Source of the DNA: Promethearchaeota archaeon | Lineage (GTDB): Archaea; Asgardarchaeota; Lokiarchaeia; Sigyniarchaeales; SOKP01 | DNA length: 64,000 bases | Direction: 5' to 3' | NCBI GenBank assembly: GCA_016840085.1 | Contig: JAEOTA010000051.1 | Coordinates: forward strand, 62,001 to 126,000 | Shown here: one piece after another, positions 28,592-43,116 of the stretch | Position numbering within the stretch: position 1 is the first letter of the stretch | Layout of the letters: each line of letters opens with the position of its first letter | Notes under the pieces: generated by a model | Told to the model about the DNA's origin: nothing | Databases searched by the model: none | What the model saw: the letters and a program-made list of their open reading frames with translations, nothing else | Position numbers and translations under genes: made by a program

Positions 28592-29092
28592 ATGATAGAT
28601 CATCCTAAAGATGCATGGGAACGGTTTTTAGATGAATTCTATGAAACTTTTTCTGTTATTGGAACGACACATTATAAAATCTTCATATGTGGTTCTTATG
28701 TTGGTAAGCATTTTGATAATTTAAAGGAGATAAAAAGTTTAATATCTGAAGAATCTGATAACTATCTTGCTTTTTTTGAATCAGATTTTCAGAAAACATA
28801 TGAAGAAAATTATATTTTTAAATTTGATTTATTAGCAGACTTTTCTAATGAGATAATAATGATAATCGAACATGATCGTGGAGGACATATTTTAGAAATG
28901 GGAATAATACTTGCAATAAGAGAATATTTAGATAAAACTTATACTTTTGTCTTAAGGGATGCACCAATTACATTAATGTTAACAAGAGGAGGTCTTCTTT
29001 CACCATTTTTCAGAGAGGGAGAGAATTTATTTTATTTTAACAATATTGATGATTTAAGATCTAAAATTTTAGAACATTTAGGTTTTACGTAA
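28592..29092 (+). CDS. nucleoside 2-deoxyribosyltransferase/TIR-like fold protein (tentative)
   Basis: 166 residues. The segment KIFICGSYVGKHFDNLKEI near residue 29 opens a Rossmann-like fold; IIMIIEHDRGGHILEMGIIL near 94 resembles the substrate loop of nucleoside 2-deoxyribosyltransferase-like proteins, where the Glu of the GxxxE helix is catalytic. Such folds cleave N-glycosidic bonds and include TIR and other nucleotide-sensing proteins. The match is by pattern only, so the call is tentative. It stands alone between the GNAT gene and a convergent regulator gene. Confidence 0.5.
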   Translation: MIDHPKDAWERFLDEFYETFSVIGTTHYKIFICGSYVGKHFDNLKEIKSLISEESDNYLAFFESDFQKTYEENYIFKFDLLADFSNEIIMIIEHDRGGHILEMGIILAIREYLDKTYTFVLRDAPITLMLTRGGLLSPFFREGENLFYFNNIDDLRSKILEHLGFT

Positions 29093-29143: not shown

Positions 29144-29485
29144 TTAAGTTAATTTCTTAAAAAGATCCTGAAATTTAGATTTTATTTTAGTTAATCCTAA
29201 TTTCTGAAGTAAATTCAATGATCTTTCATTTAGAGAATAAAATGAACGAAATTCATTGCGTTTATATTCCTTCTTTTTTTCATTCTTGACTAAATTATGA
29301 TCTTTAAGATATTTTAAATGATGATCTAATTGATTTGGTTTTGTTAACGGTAGTAATTCTTTCAATTGAGTAAAAGATAAGGGCTTTTCGCTAGCAAATA
29401 GAGTAAGCATAATTTTATATCTTGTTTTTTCAGTAATTATTTCTAAATCTTTTCTAAGACTTTCAGATTCTTCAAATATTTGCAT
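29144..29485 (-). CDS. ArsR-like winged-helix regulator
   Basis: 113 residues: a winged HTH covering residues 15-85 with TEKTRYKIMLTLFASEKPLS (helix 1-2), LLPLTKPNQLDHHLKYLKDH (recognition helix) and a wing (NEKKKEYKRNEFRSFYSLN). The last 20 residues are a basic helix that may dimerise. No metal-binding cysteines are present, so it is not a metal sensor of the ArsR kind. Target unknown; it lies at the edge of the accessory region. Confidence 0.8.
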   Translation of the reverse strand: MQIFEESESLRKDLEIITEKTRYKIMLTLFASEKPLSFTQLKELLPLTKPNQLDHHLKYLKDHNLVKNEKKKEYKRNEFRSFYSLNERSLNLLQKLGLTKIKSKFQDLFKKLT

Positions 29486-31593: not shown

Positions 31594-32937
31594 TTATTTT
31601 AATTTTTTCTTTAAATATATTGCTGTTATCACACAAATAACACTAATTAACAGTAATAAGGGATAACCAGGAATTACTGGTTCTCTTTTTTTAATGGTGT
31701 TTTCAACCCCATATTTCACCAAAACCATATCACCATTCTCCATCCCAAAACTATATGTGGTTCCCGAAAGATAAATGTTTTCTGACGAATCCACTGCCAC
31801 TCCATTGCCCAATTCCTTAGAAGTCCCCCCCCATATGCGACTCCATTGCTGCACACCCGAGCTGCTATATTTCACCAAAACCATATCTGGTTCTCCTACA
31901 TCGGAGTTTGTTGTATATCCTGTAATATAAATATCATCAGATGAACTCACAGTAACCCCATGACTTTCATCAGAATAAATTCCACCCCATATACGACTCC
32001 ATTGCAGCCCACCAGAACTGTTATATTTCACCAGCACCATATCATTTTCTCCCACCACAACACTGTATGTATCTCCCGCAAGATAAACATTGTCAAACGA
32101 ATCTATTGCCACTCCGAAACCAACATCCCAATCACGCCCTCCCCATATACGACTCCATTGCAGGTCACCAGAGCTGTTATATTTCACCAGAACCATATCT
32201 TCAACCCACGGCTCGTAAAAAACTGTTTCTCCCGCAAGATAAACATTGTCTGACGAATCTACTGCCACCCCATGGCCCTCATCATATCCGCCGAAGCCCC
32301 ATGTCTTATTCCATTGCAGCCCACCAGAACTGTTATATTTCAAAAGAATTACATCCTTACCTCCTACACCGTAACTCGATGTGTATCCTGTAACATAGAC
32401 ATTGTCTGATGAATCTACTGCCACTCCAAACGCAATATCATTTTCAGTTCCACCCCATGTACGATTCCATTGTTGTACACCAGAACTGTCATATTTTATC
32501 AAAACCAGATCAGTTCCTCCTGCCCCGAAACTATATGTGGTTCCCGAAAGATAAATGTTTTCTGACGAATCCACTGCCACTCCATGCCCATTATCATGAT
32601 AACTTCCACCCCATGTACGATTCCATTGCTGTACACCAGAACTGTTATATTTTACCAGAACCAGATCAGTTCCTCCTGCTCCGAAACCATATGCTTCTCC
32701 CGCAAGATATACATTATCTAATGAATCCACAGCAATTCCATTGCCACGATCCTCAAAACGCCCACCCCATGTGCGATACCAATCAACTTCAAAAGAATTA
32801 CTGGCAGATGAAGAGCTTCTAATATTCCTGCTAGCCTTAGCATCTTGTTCATTAAAAAGTGTGTTTGTCTCTTGGAATATGAGACTAAAATACAAGATAG
32901 AAATAAATACTATTATAGAATATTTTTTTTTTTTCAT
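31594..32937 (-). CDS. secreted seven-bladed SBBP-repeat propeller protein with C-terminal membrane anchor
   Basis: 447 residues: an N-terminal signal segment (YSIIVFISILYFSLIF, residues 6-21), then seven SBBP-type repeats of about 52 residues, each with W(N/S)R.WGG, GVAVDSS(D/E)N(V/I)Y(L/V)(A/S)G and DMVLVKY, predicting a closed seven-bladed beta-propeller outside the cell. The C-terminus has IPGYPLLLLISVICVITAIY followed by a Lys-rich stop-transfer, a membrane anchor. Blades two and seven share 58 identical bases (32528-32585 and 31748-31805), showing recent internal exchange. Presumably a surface adhesion or recognition protein; ligand unknown. Confidence 0.85.
   Translation of the reverse strand: MKKKKYSIIVFISILYFSLIFQETNTLFNEQDAKASRNIRSSSSASNSFEVDWYRTWGGRFEDRGNGIAVDSLDNVYLAGEAYGFGAGGTDLVLVKYNSSGVQQWNRTWGGSYHDNGHGVAVDSSENIYLSGTTYSFGAGGTDLVLIKYDSSGVQQWNRTWGGTENDIAFGVAVDSSDNVYVTGYTSSYGVGGKDVILLKYNSSGGLQWNKTWGFGGYDEGHGVAVDSSDNVYLAGETVFYEPWVEDMVLVKYNSSGDLQWSRIWGGRDWDVGFGVAIDSFDNVYLAGDTYSVVVGENDMVLVKYNSSGGLQWSRIWGGIYSDESHGVTVSSSDDIYITGYTTNSDVGEPDMVLVKYSSSGVQQWSRIWGGTSKELGNGVAVDSSENIYLSGTTYSFGMENGDMVLVKYGVENTIKKREPVIPGYPLLLLISVICVITAIYLKKKLK
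31748..31805 (-). repeat. 58-bp direct repeat within propeller gene (copy 1)
   Basis: Identical to 32528-32585, exactly 780 bases away, which is five repeat units of 156 bases (52 codons). It covers the GVAVDSSENIYLSGTTYSF part of a blade. Confidence 0.85.
32528..32585 (-). repeat. 58-bp direct repeat within propeller gene (copy 2)
   Basis: Partner of 31748-31805; both lie in phase with the blade repeat, so recombination between them would keep the reading frame and change blade number by five. Confidence 0.85.
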
Positions 32938-33378: not shown

Positions 33379-36300
33379 TTATTCTCTTAAAATCTCAGTG
33401 TATAATTTATTGATAAAAATGTTGAATTCTCCACTAGAAAATTTGACATTTAGTAAAGGAGTTAATAAAGCAGGTACAAAGCTCTCATTTTCATAAACAG
33501 GAACAATTTTTAATAAGCCTTTTTTTCGGAGTTGGAATGCCGCTTGCCATTCATCATTCACTGCTTTAGAGTTTAAAGCATTTTCAGAACAGAAAAGCAC
33601 AAATACATTACATTCCTTAAGAGTTCTCTCCATATATTCAACGATATTCTCTCCACTATCTACTTCCCAATACAATACTTTATTGATTTCAGGATATTTT
33701 TCTAAACTCTTTACAACCTTAGGTAATTGAAAATACTCTGAATCCAAAGTAGAATAACTTAAAAAAACATTAAACTCCTTAAATATTTCAGGTATAAATT
33801 CTAGACTAGGTACTACTTCGAATACAACTGATTTAGTGCTCGAGAAATACTCTGCAATTATCTCTTTATTATGAATCATCTTCTGAATTACACCCTCAAT
33901 TAACTTTTCATCTTTAATGCCACTGCTCTCAATTATTTCAGCAAGTTGTAATCGCGAAAATTTCTTCCCTAAATTTATAATTGTCTTTTTGAGTGAATTA
34001 ATAAAATTCAATTCTGATTTTTTACATTCTTTTATTTTTTCTTCAAGATCGAGTACTAAGTCCTCTATTTCATGAACCTGAGCCTTCTCTTTAAGCTCAA
34101 TTAAATTCATTAATGCAGTCTCGAACTTGTTTTCAAGAATTATATCACCAATTTCTAACATTTTTTTCTGTATTTTATTCTGGAGTTTAAGCTTCTTTTT
34201 ATTTATTTTCTCTTTCTTTTCTTCTTCAGTTATAGATGCTTTTTTCCTCCATGCTATTACTCCTGTTACAATAACAACAGTAATTATGCTAACAACAATA
34301 ATGATAATAATAATATCAATTGGCAAACCTTTTCTTGGTAAGGTAACGCCTATGTTTTCATTAAATTGATTACCTGCACAATCAATTTCTTCGTATGCTT
34401 TATCATTGTATCGTAAATCATTCTTAGATATAATGTTATAGTTAGATTCATTAAGAAATATTCCAATTTGATTATAACTGACTGTATTATTTGTTATATT
34501 ATTATAATGACTATTATCTAAATGAATCCCGTAAAGATTATTATGATTAATTGTCTCTTCATTATTTTCTATGTCAATATTATCGCTATTAATAAGTACA
34601 ATCCCACTCCTCCCATTTTGATTAATTAAATTCTCTGTTATATCGATGTCTTGACAATTAACTAAAGTAATTCCATTAGCATTATTATAGGAACAATTAT
34701 TATTGTTAATTACACCATTCGAAACACTATTCAATTTAATACTTGCGTCATAAATACCATTACTGGCTTCATAAAACATAGAATTTCTAATGATAAAATA
34801 TGCATCAGAATTTTGAATCTCAATACAATTGCTAGAATCTTGTCCACCTATTTTAATATGTTCAATAATATATGGATCACCTGAAATTCCAGAACCAGAA
34901 CACCAGCCCTTTAAGACTGCTTCTGCCCATGTATAATCTCCATTCCCTAAATCATCAATAATTATCGGATCTAAAGTCCAATAGTCATACTCCTTTTCAA
35001 TAGACACAGATTGGAAACCAATCTTTCCGAATGTATCATTCGCACAGAATGTGAGAATTATTGGACCAATTCCTTTTTTATCCCATTCTCTTTGATCAAT
35101 TACACCTGTAAACTCGTTAAAAGTAATATTAGTTAAACCATTGTCTATCGTATACCACATAGAATCTAAATTAGATTCATTAATGGAAATGTTAAAACTT
35201 GGTGCTATAATTCCAAAGATTTCATTAAAACTTGGAGAATTAATCATAATATAGGGATTCAAGTCGTCTCCGTCATCCCAAATTGGTAAATAATCCTTAC
35301 TCTTTGCGGTTCCACTTATAGGATATGGAAAATCCCCAATCCCATCATCATTAGAATCTCTTGCTTCAGAGCCTAATTCTGTGTAGTTGTCCCAATAATT
35401 TCCGATTAAACTATTATTCCAATTATTATTACTTCCGTCGTCTTGAACATGTAATCCATTTCCAATAAAATAATTATTATAAAATAAATTATACCTATTA
35501 GCAACATTCGTTATATATACGCCTTTCTGAGAATTTCCGGTTACATTATTATTATAAAATGTGTTATTTCCATTTCCATAATCTTCTGTTTTATCTATTT
35601 CAATTCCATTAGCTTTATTATTATAAATTTCATTTTTTAAGAATATCGAATCATTTACATTATCTTCAAAATAGATTCCATTTAAATCATTATTTTTTGC
35701 CTTATTCCTCGAAACAGAGAGATTTTTATTTCTAAAAAATTCAAAACCATTATCCTTGTTGAACATAACTTTATTCTCTGTAATATTACTTTGTTCAATC
35801 CCGCATAAATAAATTCCAACATGAGTATTATTAAAAGCTGTGTTGTTAATGATATTACTGAAATCAAGGTTGTAGATAAATATTCCATAAGAATTATTAT
35901 TCAATATATTATTTTTAATAGTGATATTATCGTAAAGTCCTGTTCCCCAATTATCTAAATAAATACCATGCCCTTTGTTCATTGAACAATTATTATTAAG
36001 TATTAATCCATTAGTCACATTAAATAGTGTGAATCCTGCACCATACATCCCAATTCCCGAATTATAGTTAGTACAATTCTCAACTTCAAAATATTCTCTT
36101 GTATTTTCAATATAAATGCAACTTCCTGAATCACCAGCATCTATTTTCAAATTTTTAATAAGATATGGATCTGAGAGTTTTCCTAAACCAGTACACCACC
36201 ACTTTACTAAAGCTGTCTGAGACCAATTTAAACCATTTATTCCATTACCATCAATGTGTATTTTTTCCCCATTATGGATAGGATTTTCGAAAATAGGTTT

Positions 36301-37464
36301 AGTGTCATTAGCTTTTGCGGTTCCTGGAATAGTATAATTAATATCACCAATACCATCAAAAGGTGTTGTATCTACTCCTCCTCCATTAGTATAATCATCC
36401 CAAAAATTTCCAATAATGCCATTATCCCATTTATTATCATTTCCATTGTCATTAGCGTGTGCAATAATATTTCCAAAAAATGAATTATTATAGAGTATAT
36501 TATCTTTACATTCAACACTCGATAGAGACACACCTGTTTGGGTATTATTATGCACGATATTACCTGTAAATGTAGTGTTAAAAGTATCTTCAAAGCTAGC
36601 ACCAATTGTATTGTTAAATAAGAAATTTCCTACCATTGTATTGTTATTATTTGAGTATGACGGGGTAAAATCATCGGAATTAATACCTATATTACTATTT
36701 GTTGCATCATTTAGTAATATCCTATTATAACTAGCACTAGAAACGTAAATTCCATCATCTTCATTGTTAGTTAGGGTATTTCCGAAAACAGTGTTGTTAT
36801 TACATTTATAACCTATTATAATCCCATATCCCTTATGATGAAGATTATTTACATAATTTCCAATAATAGAATTATTTTCTGAAGAATCTTCTAGCCAAAT
36901 TCCCGCATGAGGACCTGAAAACTTGTCATTTTTAACGTAATTTTCTACAATAGTGTTATTATAACTTGATTGAAGATGAATCCCTAAATGATTATTCGAA
37001 CAATTGTTATTAATTATTTGAGAATTATTAACGTTCTCTAAATCAATTCCTCCTAACTGATAATTATAATCAGTTTGATTAAAAAATATACAATTTTTAA
37101 TGGTAAAGGGAACATTAGAGTCTCGAACTGTAAGGCAACTATATAACCCATTTCCGTCTATCGTGACATTTTCGATAATATAAGGATCTCCCCAAGTTCC
37201 AGCTCCCTTACACCAATCTTCTTGAACTGCTGTTGCCCATGTATAATCCCCGGTACCATCATTATCATCAATCACAAATGGGTTAAGAATCCAAGATGCT
37301 GATTCACTTAGATTCTCTTTAGTTTGATTAATTGAATTGGGATATCTAATATATTCATCATCAAATTTAAAATTTTGAAAGAACAAAAATATGATAAAAA
37401 CTAATAGGATTAATGATATCACTTTTTTTCTTTTAATTCTAATAGCTTGGGATAAAATACTCAT
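33379..37464 (-). CDS. beta-helix (NosD-like) receptor protein with transmembrane segment, winged helix and TIR domain
   Basis: 1361 residues. Residues 14-30 are a signal/anchor helix. Three beta-helix modules follow (about 45-400, 405-735, 825-1035), each opening with a W.tG.G..(G/S)DPY(I/L)I(E/K)N..I signature and then runs of NNS.GI.L..S.N..I..N NosD/PbH1 coils; an Ig-like insert lies at about 740-825. A transmembrane helix (IDIIIIIIVVSIITVVIVTG, about 1047-1070) leads to a basic coiled-coil/helical-hairpin region, a winged-helix-like segment (about 1150-1215) and a C-terminal TIR domain from about 1230 (FNVFLSYSTLDSEYF, then VLFCSENALNSKAVNDEWQA). The Glu in NDEW is where TIR NADases have their catalytic Glu. 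The architecture is outside solenoid, membrane, inside TIR, as in Toll receptors. Ligand and enzymatic activity are inferences. Confidence 0.85.
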   Translation of the reverse strand: MSILSQAIRIKRKKVISLILLVFIIFLFFQNFKFDDEYIRYPNSINQTKENLSESASWILNPFVIDDNDGTGDYTWATAVQEDWCKGAGTWGDPYIIENVTIDGNGLYSCLTVRDSNVPFTIKNCIFFNQTDYNYQLGGIDLENVNNSQIINNNCSNNHLGIHLQSSYNNTIVENYVKNDKFSGPHAGIWLEDSSENNSIIGNYVNNLHHKGYGIIIGYKCNNNTVFGNTLTNNEDDGIYVSSASYNRILLNDATNSNIGINSDDFTPSYSNNNNTMVGNFLFNNTIGASFEDTFNTTFTGNIVHNNTQTGVSLSSVECKDNILYNNSFFGNIIAHANDNGNDNKWDNGIIGNFWDDYTNGGGVDTTPFDGIGDINYTIPGTAKANDTKPIFENPIHNGEKIHIDGNGINGLNWSQTALVKWWCTGLGKLSDPYLIKNLKIDAGDSGSCIYIENTREYFEVENCTNYNSGIGMYGAGFTLFNVTNGLILNNNCSMNKGHGIYLDNWGTGLYDNITIKNNILNNNSYGIFIYNLDFSNIINNTAFNNTHVGIYLCGIEQSNITENKVMFNKDNGFEFFRNKNLSVSRNKAKNNDLNGIYFEDNVNDSIFLKNEIYNNKANGIEIDKTEDYGNGNNTFYNNNVTGNSQKGVYITNVANRYNLFYNNYFIGNGLHVQDDGSNNNWNNSLIGNYWDNYTELGSEARDSNDDGIGDFPYPISGTAKSKDYLPIWDDGDDLNPYIMINSPSFNEIFGIIAPSFNISINESNLDSMWYTIDNGLTNITFNEFTGVIDQREWDKKGIGPIILTFCANDTFGKIGFQSVSIEKEYDYWTLDPIIIDDLGNGDYTWAEAVLKGWCSGSGISGDPYIIEHIKIGGQDSSNCIEIQNSDAYFIIRNSMFYEASNGIYDASIKLNSVSNGVINNNNCSYNNANGITLVNCQDIDITENLINQNGRSGIVLINSDNIDIENNEETINHNNLYGIHLDNSHYNNITNNTVSYNQIGIFLNESNYNIISKNDLRYNDKAYEEIDCAGNQFNENIGVTLPRKGLPIDIIIIIIVVSIITVVIVTGVIAWRKKASITEEEKKEKINKKKLKLQNKIQKKMLEIGDIILENKFETALMNLIELKEKAQVHEIEDLVLDLEEKIKECKKSELNFINSLKKTIINLGKKFSRLQLAEIIESSGIKDEKLIEGVIQKMIHNKEIIAEYFSSTKSVVFEVVPSLEFIPEIFKEFNVFLSYSTLDSEYFQLPKVVKSLEKYPEINKVLYWEVDSGENIVEYMERTLKECNVFVLFCSENALNSKAVNDEWQAAFQLRKKGLLKIVPVYENESFVPALLTPLLNVKFSSGEFNIFINKLYTEILRE

Positions 37465-38166: not shown

Positions 38167-38685
38167 TTATATTGCCCATTTAACCCATTTTCTATAAGTA
38201 TTTTCTGCCTTATTCATAGCTTTTGTTAATTTTTTTGTCTTTTTCTGATTTTCCTTATCTTCTCTATCACTAATTGAATCAATTTCTTTTTTTAAGGCAT
38301 TTGTGACAAGTTGAGCCATAAACGATACAAAAGCTCTCTTTCTTGAAAGCTTTTTAATTGGATCCTTAAATTCACGATGACTTGTCACTTCTAACATACA
38401 CCCACCAGCACGTATTATTCCGGTCATCCCAGGTACTGAAACATCCTTCATAGATATATAAACTATTTTTATTGTCTTATCTTTTTGGGGCACATTAAAC
38501 GCTATTCCATTAGGAGTCACAAGAAAATGTGTAAACCAGTACTTAACTTTTACTTTACCAAATGTTAAAGTGGGTGTTCTTATTTCGCATCTACCATATC
38601 CACTATAGATTACTTGTTCATCTTCAGGAATAATAGAAGTAAGATTACTAAAATCTATGGGAACATACATGTTTGGATTACTCAT
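38167..38685 (-). CDS. hypothetical protein, possible PH-like domain
   Basis: 172 residues. The first 110 residues are beta-rich (VIYSGYGRCEIRTPTLTFGK, KYWFTHFLVTPNGIAFNVP, IKIVYISMKDVSVPG), a pattern resembling bacterial PH-like domains with a 'TP.G' turn. The rest is a highly charged helix. No known family is recognised. GGTGAT ends three bases before the ATG, a strong ribosome binding site. It lies 5' of copy C of the 113-residue family, on the same strand, separated by about 50 bases. Confidence 0.55.
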   Translation of the reverse strand: MSNPNMYVPIDFSNLTSIIPEDEQVIYSGYGRCEIRTPTLTFGKVKVKYWFTHFLVTPNGIAFNVPQKDKTIKIVYISMKDVSVPGMTGIIRAGGCMLEVTSHREFKDPIKKLSRKRAFVSFMAQLVTNALKKEIDSISDREDKENQKKTKKLTKAMNKAENTYRKWVKWAI

Positions 38686-39049: not shown

Positions 39050-40639
39050 ATGAAAGAAATTTTTTCAAGAAAGATTATTATTTTCATTTTGTTGGCAGGC
39101 TTCTTTTTGATTTTGATATCTATTACTTTAATAACAGTAAATAGCAATTTAAAAATTAATGCACAGAACTTTAATGAAAATAACTCTATTAATTTGGAGA
39201 ATTTCGATAAATTGCAATGTTCAGACTCTGCGGGTCTTTATCATGATGATCATGCAGAACTGCATGGTTATGCTGATCAATATGTTACTTGGAGTTTTTC
39301 AACCGTCCCTTCTCAAATTATTAATGTATGGGCGATGGATGCATTTCAATATTCTTTATGGATTGCAGGACAAAGTGCATCGGGATATCTCCTTTCAACT
39401 GACTCTAGTGATACTGGAACCTTTAATGTCCCCGGAGGTAATACTTGGTATATTATTTTTTGGAATGATGAAATTGGTAGTGAATATACAGTTGTGACTT
39501 ATAATGCAAATTTTGTAGGTGATAGTCGCCCTCCAGCAATAGAGATAATAATACCTTCGTCATCATCTAATTATCAAACTGGTTCTGACCACATTATAGA
39601 GTGGTCAACTCAAGGATCAGTTGGGAATCTTAAAATTGAACTATTTAAAGGTAGTTCATTATATACAACAATCCATTCTAGTACTGCCAATGATGGTCAA
39701 GAGACATGGATAGTCCCTGGAACTTGCCCTGAAGCGTCTGATTATAGAATAAAAATTACAGATACTTCAGATCCAAATGTATATGATTATAGTTCTTATT
39801 TTACTATAATTGAAGTAAAATCAATAACTATTTTAGAACCCATAAATACTTCTATAGTTGTTCCAAAGACAAATCAAACAATTCTTTGGGAAAGTACAGG
39901 CTCAATTGATGAGGTAAAAATTGAACTTTATAAAGGAACTGAACTATTAAAAGAACTTTCATCTAAAACTGAAAATGATGGTTCATTTTCATGGGTTCCA
40001 TTATATTATGAAACGGATGGATACAGTTGGAATGTAATTCCTAGGGGAACGGATTATAGGATTAAAATAAAGGATGTTTACTCTAGTGTAAACTGTTTTA
40101 GTGAATATTTTGAAATTACAAATGTAAAATCTCTAACTGTATTTGAACCTAATAGTTCTTCATCCTATAAACATGGTGAAATAATGACGATCAAATGGGA
40201 GACAGATACACCATGTGAAACTCTTGATATAAAAGTATATCATAAACCTCAAGGTAGTTCTGATGCTGATAAGGTGTCAACTATTCCTTCAGTTCCAAAT
40301 ATTGGATATTATAATTGGACTATCCCCATTGATTTACCTCATGGTAATTATTATCTTGTGATAGAAGCAACGGATAACAGTGTCCTTGAATTTAGTGAAC
40401 ATTTTACAATACAGTCTTCTTCCAGTGATATTAGTATTGGATATGACCTTGTGTTTGTTATCATAGTTATATCGTTGATTTCTATAATCATAATTATTAA
40501 AAAGTCGAATATAAAAATTAAACTAAAATTCTCGAATAAATTCAAAGATTTAGTTATTCATACAAAATTCGATAACATGATGAGATATAATCATATTGTA
40601 AATTATATTCTTTTGGGTGCTAATACTGAAGATTCCTGA
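39050..40639 (+). CDS. secreted protein with three Kre9/KNH-type domains and a transmembrane segment
   Basis: 529 residues: N-terminal signal segment (IIIFILLAGFFLILISITLI, 9-28), a first beta domain of about 125 residues, then three repeats of about 100 residues resembling the Ser-Thr-rich GPI-anchored (Kre9/KNH, PF10342-like) domain: IEWSTQGSVGNLKIELFKG, ILWESTGSIDEVKIELYKG and IKWETDTPCETLDIKVYHK each open one, and (D)YRIKI(T/K)D closes two. A helix (YDLVFVIIVISLISIIIIIK, about 464-483) precedes a 45-residue basic tail, presumably cytoplasmic. The gene overlaps the TPR frame at 40617 by 23 bases. No ribosome binding site is clear at the ATG, as expected for a leaderless or weakly led transcript. 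Confidence 0.7.
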   Translation: MKEIFSRKIIIFILLAGFFLILISITLITVNSNLKINAQNFNENNSINLENFDKLQCSDSAGLYHDDHAELHGYADQYVTWSFSTVPSQIINVWAMDAFQYSLWIAGQSASGYLLSTDSSDTGTFNVPGGNTWYIIFWNDEIGSEYTVVTYNANFVGDSRPPAIEIIIPSSSSNYQTGSDHIIEWSTQGSVGNLKIELFKGSSLYTTIHSSTANDGQETWIVPGTCPEASDYRIKITDTSDPNVYDYSSYFTIIEVKSITILEPINTSIVVPKTNQTILWESTGSIDEVKIELYKGTELLKELSSKTENDGSFSWVPLYYETDGYSWNVIPRGTDYRIKIKDVYSSVNCFSEYFEITNVKSLTVFEPNSSSSYKHGEIMTIKWETDTPCETLDIKVYHKPQGSSDADKVSTIPSVPNIGYYNWTIPIDLPHGNYYLVIEATDNSVLEFSEHFTIQSSSSDISIGYDLVFVIIVISLISIIIIIKKSNIKIKLKFSNKFKDLVIHTKFDNMMRYNHIVNYILLGANTEDS

Positions 40640-42729: not shown

Positions 42730-43116
42730 CTAATCCATAGATTCTTTAATGCGATTACCCGTGAGATATAAGTCCATTAAATTTGGTAAAGTTTCGAGCC
42801 CTTTAATCTCTGAAATGGGATTACCTCCATGATTTCCATCTCCAAACCATAGAAACTCTAAATTCCCAAGATTATCTAAAACTTCGATTTCAGAAATATG
42901 ATTTCCACTGAGATTTAAGAACTTCAAACTTGTAAGATTTTCAAATTTATGAATACAATTACCCTTAAGATGAAAAATATCAACATTCTTTAATTTTCCT
43001 AACCCTTTAATTTCCGAAAGCTTATTGGAAGTAAGGTCAGTGAGGTCTACTCTCTTATCATGAACAAAAAATTTTTTTCCATGAATAACAACATATTCCG
43101 CTAAATTTTCCTCCAT
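42730..43116 (-). CDS. small leucine-rich repeat protein
   Basis: 128 residues carrying about four LRRs of the 22-residue SDS22 type: LTSNKLSEIKGLGKLKNVD, LKGNCIHKFENLTSLKFL, LSGNHISEIEVLDNLGNLE, and a last one ending LYLTGNRIKESMD. No signal peptide is seen, so it is probably cytoplasmic. Divergent from the large LRR gene, with which it shares a 150-bp promoter region. It is short compared with most LRR proteins and may be a fragment, but its frame is clean and it starts with ATG. Confidence 0.72.
   Translation of the reverse strand: MEENLAEYVVIHGKKFFVHDKRVDLTDLTSNKLSEIKGLGKLKNVDIFHLKGNCIHKFENLTSLKFLNLSGNHISEIEVLDNLGNLEFLWFGDGNHGGNPISEIKGLETLPNLMDLYLTGNRIKESMD

Follow-up and report, generated by a model that had tools for sequence, protein, structure and literature searches.

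We analyzed a gene within a 64,000-nucleotide stretch of DNA (the window) from a Promethearchaeota archaeon of the class Lokiarchaeia (contig JAEOTA010000051.1, positions 62,001 to 126,000), which encodes a transmembrane protein of 1361 residues with a C-terminal TIR domain. Our best reading is that this protein, referred to below as the window protein, belongs to a large Lokiarchaeial family of TIR receptors with exchangeable ectodomains. We give a probability of roughly 0.6 to its being a type-I, single-pass surface receptor with an enzyme-type TIR, for which we infer a ligand, NADase activity, a messenger and an effector of its own.

Domain order, topology and the TIR domain

An earlier note, made from the letters of the DNA, had described three NosD-type beta-helix modules and an Ig-like insert in front of one hydrophobic helix, then a coiled coil, a winged-helix-like segment and a TIR domain with a conserved Glu, and most of this description has held. 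In Pfam, the ectodomain matched NosD (6.9e-50, 169.9 bits) and Beta_helix (4.5e-43, 147 bits), each over six stretches and above the gathering score, and the scan of the protein returned no leucine-rich repeat (LRR). A leader motif, IDD..G.GDYTW..A...WC.G.G...DPYIIE, opens beta-helix modules 1 and 3, and a variant of it opens module 2. The AlphaFold model of residues 27-1080 contains three beta-helix runs with low-confidence linkers between them, a beta-sandwich insert and the transmembrane helix, and hydropathy likewise finds one N-terminal segment (residues ~12-32) and a single strong helix (1051-1069, mean 3.3) between the beta-helix part and the C-terminal part. At the C-terminus, TIR_2 was matched at residues 1233-1344 (4.3e-14; score 53.5 bits, cut-off 28). 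A model of residues 1032-1361, made with 38 relatives, has a mean predicted local distance difference test score (pLDDT) of 89 and contains the transmembrane helix, three long helices, a winged helix and a confident TIR fold; in a Foldseek search of this part against PDB, TIR domains ranked first, those of MyD88, SPARTA, Hydra TRR-2 (TMt 0.78) and AbTir (TMt 0.79).

The segment between the membrane and the TIR domain is where the earlier description has to be modified. The winged helix is present, but what had been taken for a separate coiled coil looks, in the model, like a part of the same PCI-like module, as the helices and winged helix together match COP9 signalosome chain C in Foldseek (E 2.5e-4, with a poor superposition over the whole stretch). 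The Pfam PCI model matches one relative (L084) at the equivalent place, directly before its TIR, and gives no match to the window protein itself. Other receptors vary around this position. In L068:4474-9543, a Swt1-like HEPN domain at residues ~1429-1533 (weak in Pfam; PDC-M34B in PADLOC) replaces the PCI-like module between membrane helix and TIR, and the linkers of L076 and L091 are, by eye, similar to it in sequence. The receptors of L086, L093, L095 and L100 carry 200-300 residues of unfamiliar sequence after the TIR, possibly an extra effector domain; the first three of these stretches were scanned with Pfam and gave no match.

The orientation of the protein was examined in 28 receptor-type relatives, with expectations taken from shuffled sequences. 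N-glycosylation sequons are more frequent than expected in the outer parts (883 against 527) and less frequent in the inner parts (17 against 36), and the window protein follows the same trend (outside 39, with 22 expected; inside 1, with 1.7 expected). Lysine and arginine together average 6.4 per 15 residues after the transmembrane helix and 1.0 before it. An N-terminal hydrophobic segment is found in 23 of the 28, and two of the remaining five run off the 5' end of the contig stretch. These predictions support a single-pass membrane protein with the ectodomain outside and the TIR domain in the cytoplasm, as the earlier note had supposed.

By its sequence, the window TIR is of the enzyme type, because E1305 (the Glu of the NDEW motif) takes the place of the conserved catalytic Glu in the helix after strand D, and its column is Glu in 63 of the 64 TIRs aligned and also in the TIRs of 9m0n and SPARTA, the latter residue being the catalytic one; on this basis the protein may be an NADase. 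No Glu stands at this column in Hydra TRR-2, which bears on the possibility that the protein is a non-enzymatic scaffold, as in animal Toll-like receptors (TLRs), whose TIR would attract further TIR proteins or PCI-like proteins through contacts. The Toll-like layout speaks for a scaffold, as does the fact that MyD88 and Hydra TRR-2 are two of the top matches by fold, and so does the lone exception among the relatives, a Gln in L080:9227-11626 beside a Glu-bearing paralogue, because of which some members of the family may act without catalysis. We nevertheless consider a scaffold improbable for the window protein, given the retention of Glu in nearly all members and its absence from the aligned animal TRR-2, and given that the four receptors described below are the only TIR proteins found in the source genome, which leaves no obvious soluble TIR adaptor there. 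The two neighboring membrane receptor genes of L080 (7656-9194 and 9227-11626), with Glu and Gln respectively at the catalytic position, are a possible pair of active enzyme and pseudo-enzyme.

A probable receptor family with exchangeable ectodomains in Lokiarchaeia

The source genome (4.68 Mb, 98.8% complete, with a contamination estimate of 7.6%) encodes four TIR_2 proteins, all with the order NosD, transmembrane helix and TIR: the window protein, two with an additional Peripla_BP_6 domain (L005 and L007) and a short form of 301 residues (L006). The TIRs of the other three are 61-62% identical to that of the window protein, and the TIR_2 search of this genome found no TIR protein beyond these four. 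The same genome has about 20 NosD open reading frames (ORFs), and those non-TIR NosD proteins in which a C-terminal transmembrane helix was detected end 2-15 residues past it, so that TIR is the only cytoplasmic domain seen on its NosD proteins. This is relevant to whether the window protein could be a surface adhesin or a NosD-type polysaccharide-active enzyme with TIR as an incidental fusion. The abundance of NosD surface proteins would fit such an origin, as would the Foldseek matches of the ectodomain, namely alginate lyase/epimerase, phage tailspikes and the NosD subunit of NosDFY, that is, sugar enzymes and tailspikes. We judge it very improbable, since among the NosD proteins of this genome a cytoplasmic part is confined to those that bear TIR, and since the layout of TIR and transmembrane helix recurs across genera and families on unrelated ectodomains. 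A separate feature of many of the ordinary NosD surface proteins is their ending, PGYN-(F/L)(L/I)LLG...KK (for example in L108, L109 and L115), which resembles a sorting or processing signal and is absent from the four TIR proteins.

Within the phylum, a profile of the source-genome TIRs matched 60 of 228 genomes, almost all of which belong to the same class. The named close relatives are Lokiarchaeia metagenome-assembled genomes, in agreement with the Asgard origin assumed in the earlier note, and one pattern scan of GTDB genomes, which reaches close relatives only, returned Lokiarchaeia and one remote bacterial match. No relative of the window TIR was found in phage and viral collections. 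Proteins with NosD, a transmembrane helix and TIR do occur in other Asgard genomes, as part of a large Lokiarchaeial family. In full-length relatives, one transmembrane helix joins the TIR to NosD alone (up to 2206 residues), to Peripla_BP_6 and NosD (with fn3 in L066), to SBP_bac_5 and NosD (one still open at 3475 residues), to LVIVD repeats, to PKD and NosD, to an SBBP propeller or to WD40-like repeats. This TIR family also includes multi-pass proteins and cytoplasmic ones that carry LRR, WD40 or TPR; none of the LRR-TIR relatives examined has a transmembrane helix. In a tree of the 64 TIRs, that of the window protein is sister to the TIR of a cytoplasmic LRR protein, L082 (95/88), and the well-supported branches require that proteins have changed from receptor to another architecture, or back, five times or more, so the TIR cassette has moved between outward-facing and inward-facing sensors. 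That one and the same TIR is combined with six or more kinds of ectodomain, including several folds known to bind ligands, strengthens the surface-receptor function proposed in the earlier note; we infer that function still, as we do the NADase activity.

The locus, linked genes and a possible mechanism

An all-against-all comparison of neighboring ORFs found no conserved neighbors of the window gene, and the receptor lies in a variable interval: G117, which is syntenic, keeps the genes on either side together (the homologues of 28592-29092, 29144-29485, 38167-38685 and 39050-40639) but lacks the receptor. One Peripla_BP_6 receptor, by contrast, has the same neighbors in three genomes (L007, L065 and L066) and because of this has the appearance of a resident sensor. 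Identity between its versions is 56-69% in the ectodomain parts and 54-88% in the TIR, so that the ectodomain does not clearly evolve faster. Both observations concern the proposal that the window protein is a membrane-anchored abortive-infection device, which would sense virus adsorption or envelope damage and whose TIR would kill or arrest the cell through NAD+ depletion, without a messenger reader. The retained Glu, the variable interval and the lack of a SLOG/RelA reader in the source genome are compatible with such a device. We regard it as unlikely, as the sensing part of several relatives has a solute-binding protein fold, a better fit to small ligands than to virions, as the constant neighbors of the Peripla_BP_6 receptor are unlike those of most defense genes, and as no PADLOC model matches the window protein.

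In relatives, a gene of up to 863 residues combining RelA_SpoT, TPR/TPR-S and LSDAT_prok (SLOG in TRPM) adjoins TIR receptor genes (L067, L079 and L068) and a multi-pass TIR gene (L073). D83 and E162, which we take to be the synthetase catalytic residues of its RelA/SpoT domain, are invariant in three aligned proteins. The gene was found in 19 of the 228 genomes, and when fragments (G111, G117 and G162) and a contig-end locus (G125) are left out, 15 informative loci remain. A TIR gene lies within 3 kb in 11 of these and at about 5 kb in a twelfth (G116); as a ~4-Mb genome has between a handful and about 20 TIR genes, we estimate an expected linkage of a few percent per locus. G112 carries two receptors and one RelA-SLOG gene at one locus (contigs C158 and C384, joined by an exact 144-base overlap), and G118 has a multi-pass TIR at the equivalent locus. 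Two species, G111 and G117, have kept the genes on both sides of this locus but lost the receptor, and their RelA-SLOG gene is reduced to fragments. The linkage and this joint decay support a nucleotide circuit from TIR to SLOG, similar to that of Thoeris, with an extracellular sensor, and it is plausible that the SLOG-TPR-RelA/SpoT protein reads a TIR-made nucleotide signal in these relatives. Being repeatedly placed beside membrane or TPR-type TIR genes, the gene is also a candidate nucleotide-signaling system in its own right.

Based on these results, the sequence of events that we favor would be that the beta-helix/Ig ectodomain binds a ligand or surface outside the cell, probably glycan-like judging from its fold, and that binding alters the clustering or conformation of the chains across the single membrane helix. 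The PCI-like module would hold the TIR and may mediate oligomerization or docking; clustered TIRs would turn into active NAD+-consuming enzymes, which would make a messenger of the (cyclic) ADP-ribose type or drain NAD+. In the sister systems, the adjacent SLOG-TPR-RelA/SpoT protein would read this messenger and switch on an alarmone-type nucleotide. A general Lokiarchaeial outside-in system of this design, with exchangeable extracellular sensors, one transmembrane helix, an enzymatic TIR and a nucleotide read by SLOG-TPR-RelA/SpoT, would be a prokaryotic second-messenger counterpart of Toll signaling; we put it forward tentatively, at slightly under even odds. Several points weigh against our reading of the window protein. 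The source genome has no RelA_SpoT, no LSDAT_prok SLOG and no match to the whole RelA-SLOG gene, so that the best-linked output pathway cannot serve the window protein, and we rejected RelA-SLOG as its own partner. A conserved Glu is by itself no proof of TIR activity. The ectodomain model is of moderate confidence (pLDDT 73), and its Foldseek matches superpose poorly when its full length is considered.

Other genes of the window deserve mention. The ORF immediately downstream of the receptor (31594-32937, same strand) encodes an SBBP beta-propeller surface protein, and L060 has an SBBP propeller within the same chain as a transmembrane helix and TIR. A short LRR ORF (42730-43116) lies ~5 kb from the receptor, and LRR ORFs near TIR genes also occur in L151, L153 and L154. 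The 166-residue protein of 28592-29092, with the motif KIFICGSY...EHDRGGHILEMG, belongs to no Pfam family and is single-copy and widespread (26 close matches); by eye it had resembled a possible nucleotide-signaling partner, but it was rejected as such, being present with or without the receptor and having no PDB relative.

Table 1. Features of the window protein (window coordinates) and RelA/SpoT-TPR-SLOG loci of relatives.
Feature	Location	Strand	Basis
Complete gene, transmembrane TIR protein, 1361 residues	33379..37464	-	ORF call, Pfam
N-terminal hydrophobic segment, residues ~12-32, signal peptide or anchor	37369..37431	-	hydropathy
NosD/beta-helix module 1, residues ~57-385, leader motif IDD..GDYTW..WC.G.G..DPYIIE	36310..37296	-	sequence, Pfam, AlphaFold
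NosD/beta-helix module 2, residues ~400-735	35260..36267	-	sequence, Pfam, AlphaFold
Ig-like beta-sandwich insert, residues ~736-826	34987..35259	-	AlphaFold; Foldseek match to 95-residue B1 domain 9kvu
NosD/beta-helix module 3, residues ~828-1045	34330..34983	-	Pfam, AlphaFold
Single transmembrane helix, residues ~1051-1073, inner side basic	34246..34314	-	hydropathy, AlphaFold, lysine/arginine counts in relatives
Helical repeat and winged helix, PCI-like module, residues ~1080-1215	33820..34227	-	AlphaFold; Foldseek COP9 signalosome chain C; Pfam PCI in relative L084
TIR domain, residues ~1231-1359	33388..33774	-	TIR_2 search, Pfam, AlphaFold, Foldseek
E1305, aligned with TIR NADase catalytic Glu; Glu in 63/64 relatives	33550..33552	-	profile alignment to PDB; TIR alignment
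RelA/SpoT-TPR-SLOG genes	L067:7011-9602; L073:7613-10183; L068:9967-12483; L079:5376-7091; L147-L156		
RelA-SLOG loci, membrane TIR within 3 kb	G112, G118, G098, G148		
RelA-SLOG loci, TPR-TIR within 3 kb	G140, G143, G129, G115, G145		Pfam (G140, G115, G145); same C-terminal sequence (G143, G129)
RelA-SLOG loci, TIR within 3 kb, both genes truncated	G094, G095		

Comparison with known systems

The window protein shares its ectodomain family with archaeal NosD and right-handed beta-helix surface proteins, but the ordinary ones of the source genome stop just past the membrane helix. Bacterial one-component and chemoreceptor-like sensors share with the paralogues Peripla_BP_6, SBP_bac_5 and ANF_receptor-like domains outside one membrane helix, and differ in their output, which is a kinase, a cyclase or HAMP/MCP where the Lokiarchaeial proteins have TIR. 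With Thoeris ThsB/ThsA, SPARTA and Cat1 the window protein shares the TIR fold and the position of the Glu. These systems sense infection inside the cell, as do, to our knowledge, the prokaryotic TIR systems studied so far, whereas the Lokiarchaeial TIR hangs from a membrane receptor. In Thoeris, ThsA senses the TIR product through its SLOG domain, and the Lokiarchaeial relatives encode a SLOG-bearing protein beside the TIR gene; unlike that of ThsA, the linked SLOG is TRPM-like (LSDAT_prok) and sits on a RelA/SpoT-TPR protein, which would be a ready reader for the TIR signal. No ThsA-like gene (SIR2, Macro or transmembrane part with SLOG) was found by Pfam among the neighbors of the window gene, and LSDAT_prok is absent from the source genome. 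A search of 19 genomes for STALD, the ThsA-type SLOG, gave no match, and since its control was silent too, absence is not proven.

A survey of Asgard defense systems lists Rst 2TM-1TM-TIR and TIR-NLR systems (PMC11291487), which resemble the present family in that an Asgard TIR is combined with membrane or repeat partners. TIR appears there in two places, as system names only; no large ectodomain is mentioned, nor do the words receptor and transmembrane occur. In a survey of TIR domains, Toll layouts are described for metazoans and no more than 118 archaeal TIRs are counted. In the part of the literature covered by our search, we found no paper joining Lokiarchaeota with a TIR domain and no comparable prokaryotic membrane TIR receptor. 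The family is thus apparently undescribed, as the earlier note had suggested for the system, a novelty that is provisional because this coverage is partial.

The comparison with Toll receptors is the closest in overall design. Metazoan Toll and Toll-like receptors and the Lokiarchaeial proteins have in common a signal or anchor, an extracellular solenoid, one membrane helix and a cytoplasmic TIR, so the match to the logic of Toll receptors claimed in the earlier note stands as far as layout is concerned. It does not extend to the parts: beta-helix or solute-binding ectodomains, of a carbohydrate type in the window protein, take the place of LRR, a PCI-like module is added between membrane and TIR, and the Lokiarchaeial TIR retains the enzyme-type Glu. 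Without an extracellular LRR and with the enzyme Glu kept, the window protein is Toll-like in layout and not a TLR of the metazoan type. Membrane Toll receptors have been thought of as an animal invention; our results show that this layout arose in archaea as well, apparently independently of animals. If our proposal is true, archaea related to eukaryotes would possess a counterpart of Toll signaling that uses second messengers. The single-pass TIR receptors of Asgard archaea allow a direct test of whether an extracellular ligand switches on a TIR enzyme across the membrane.

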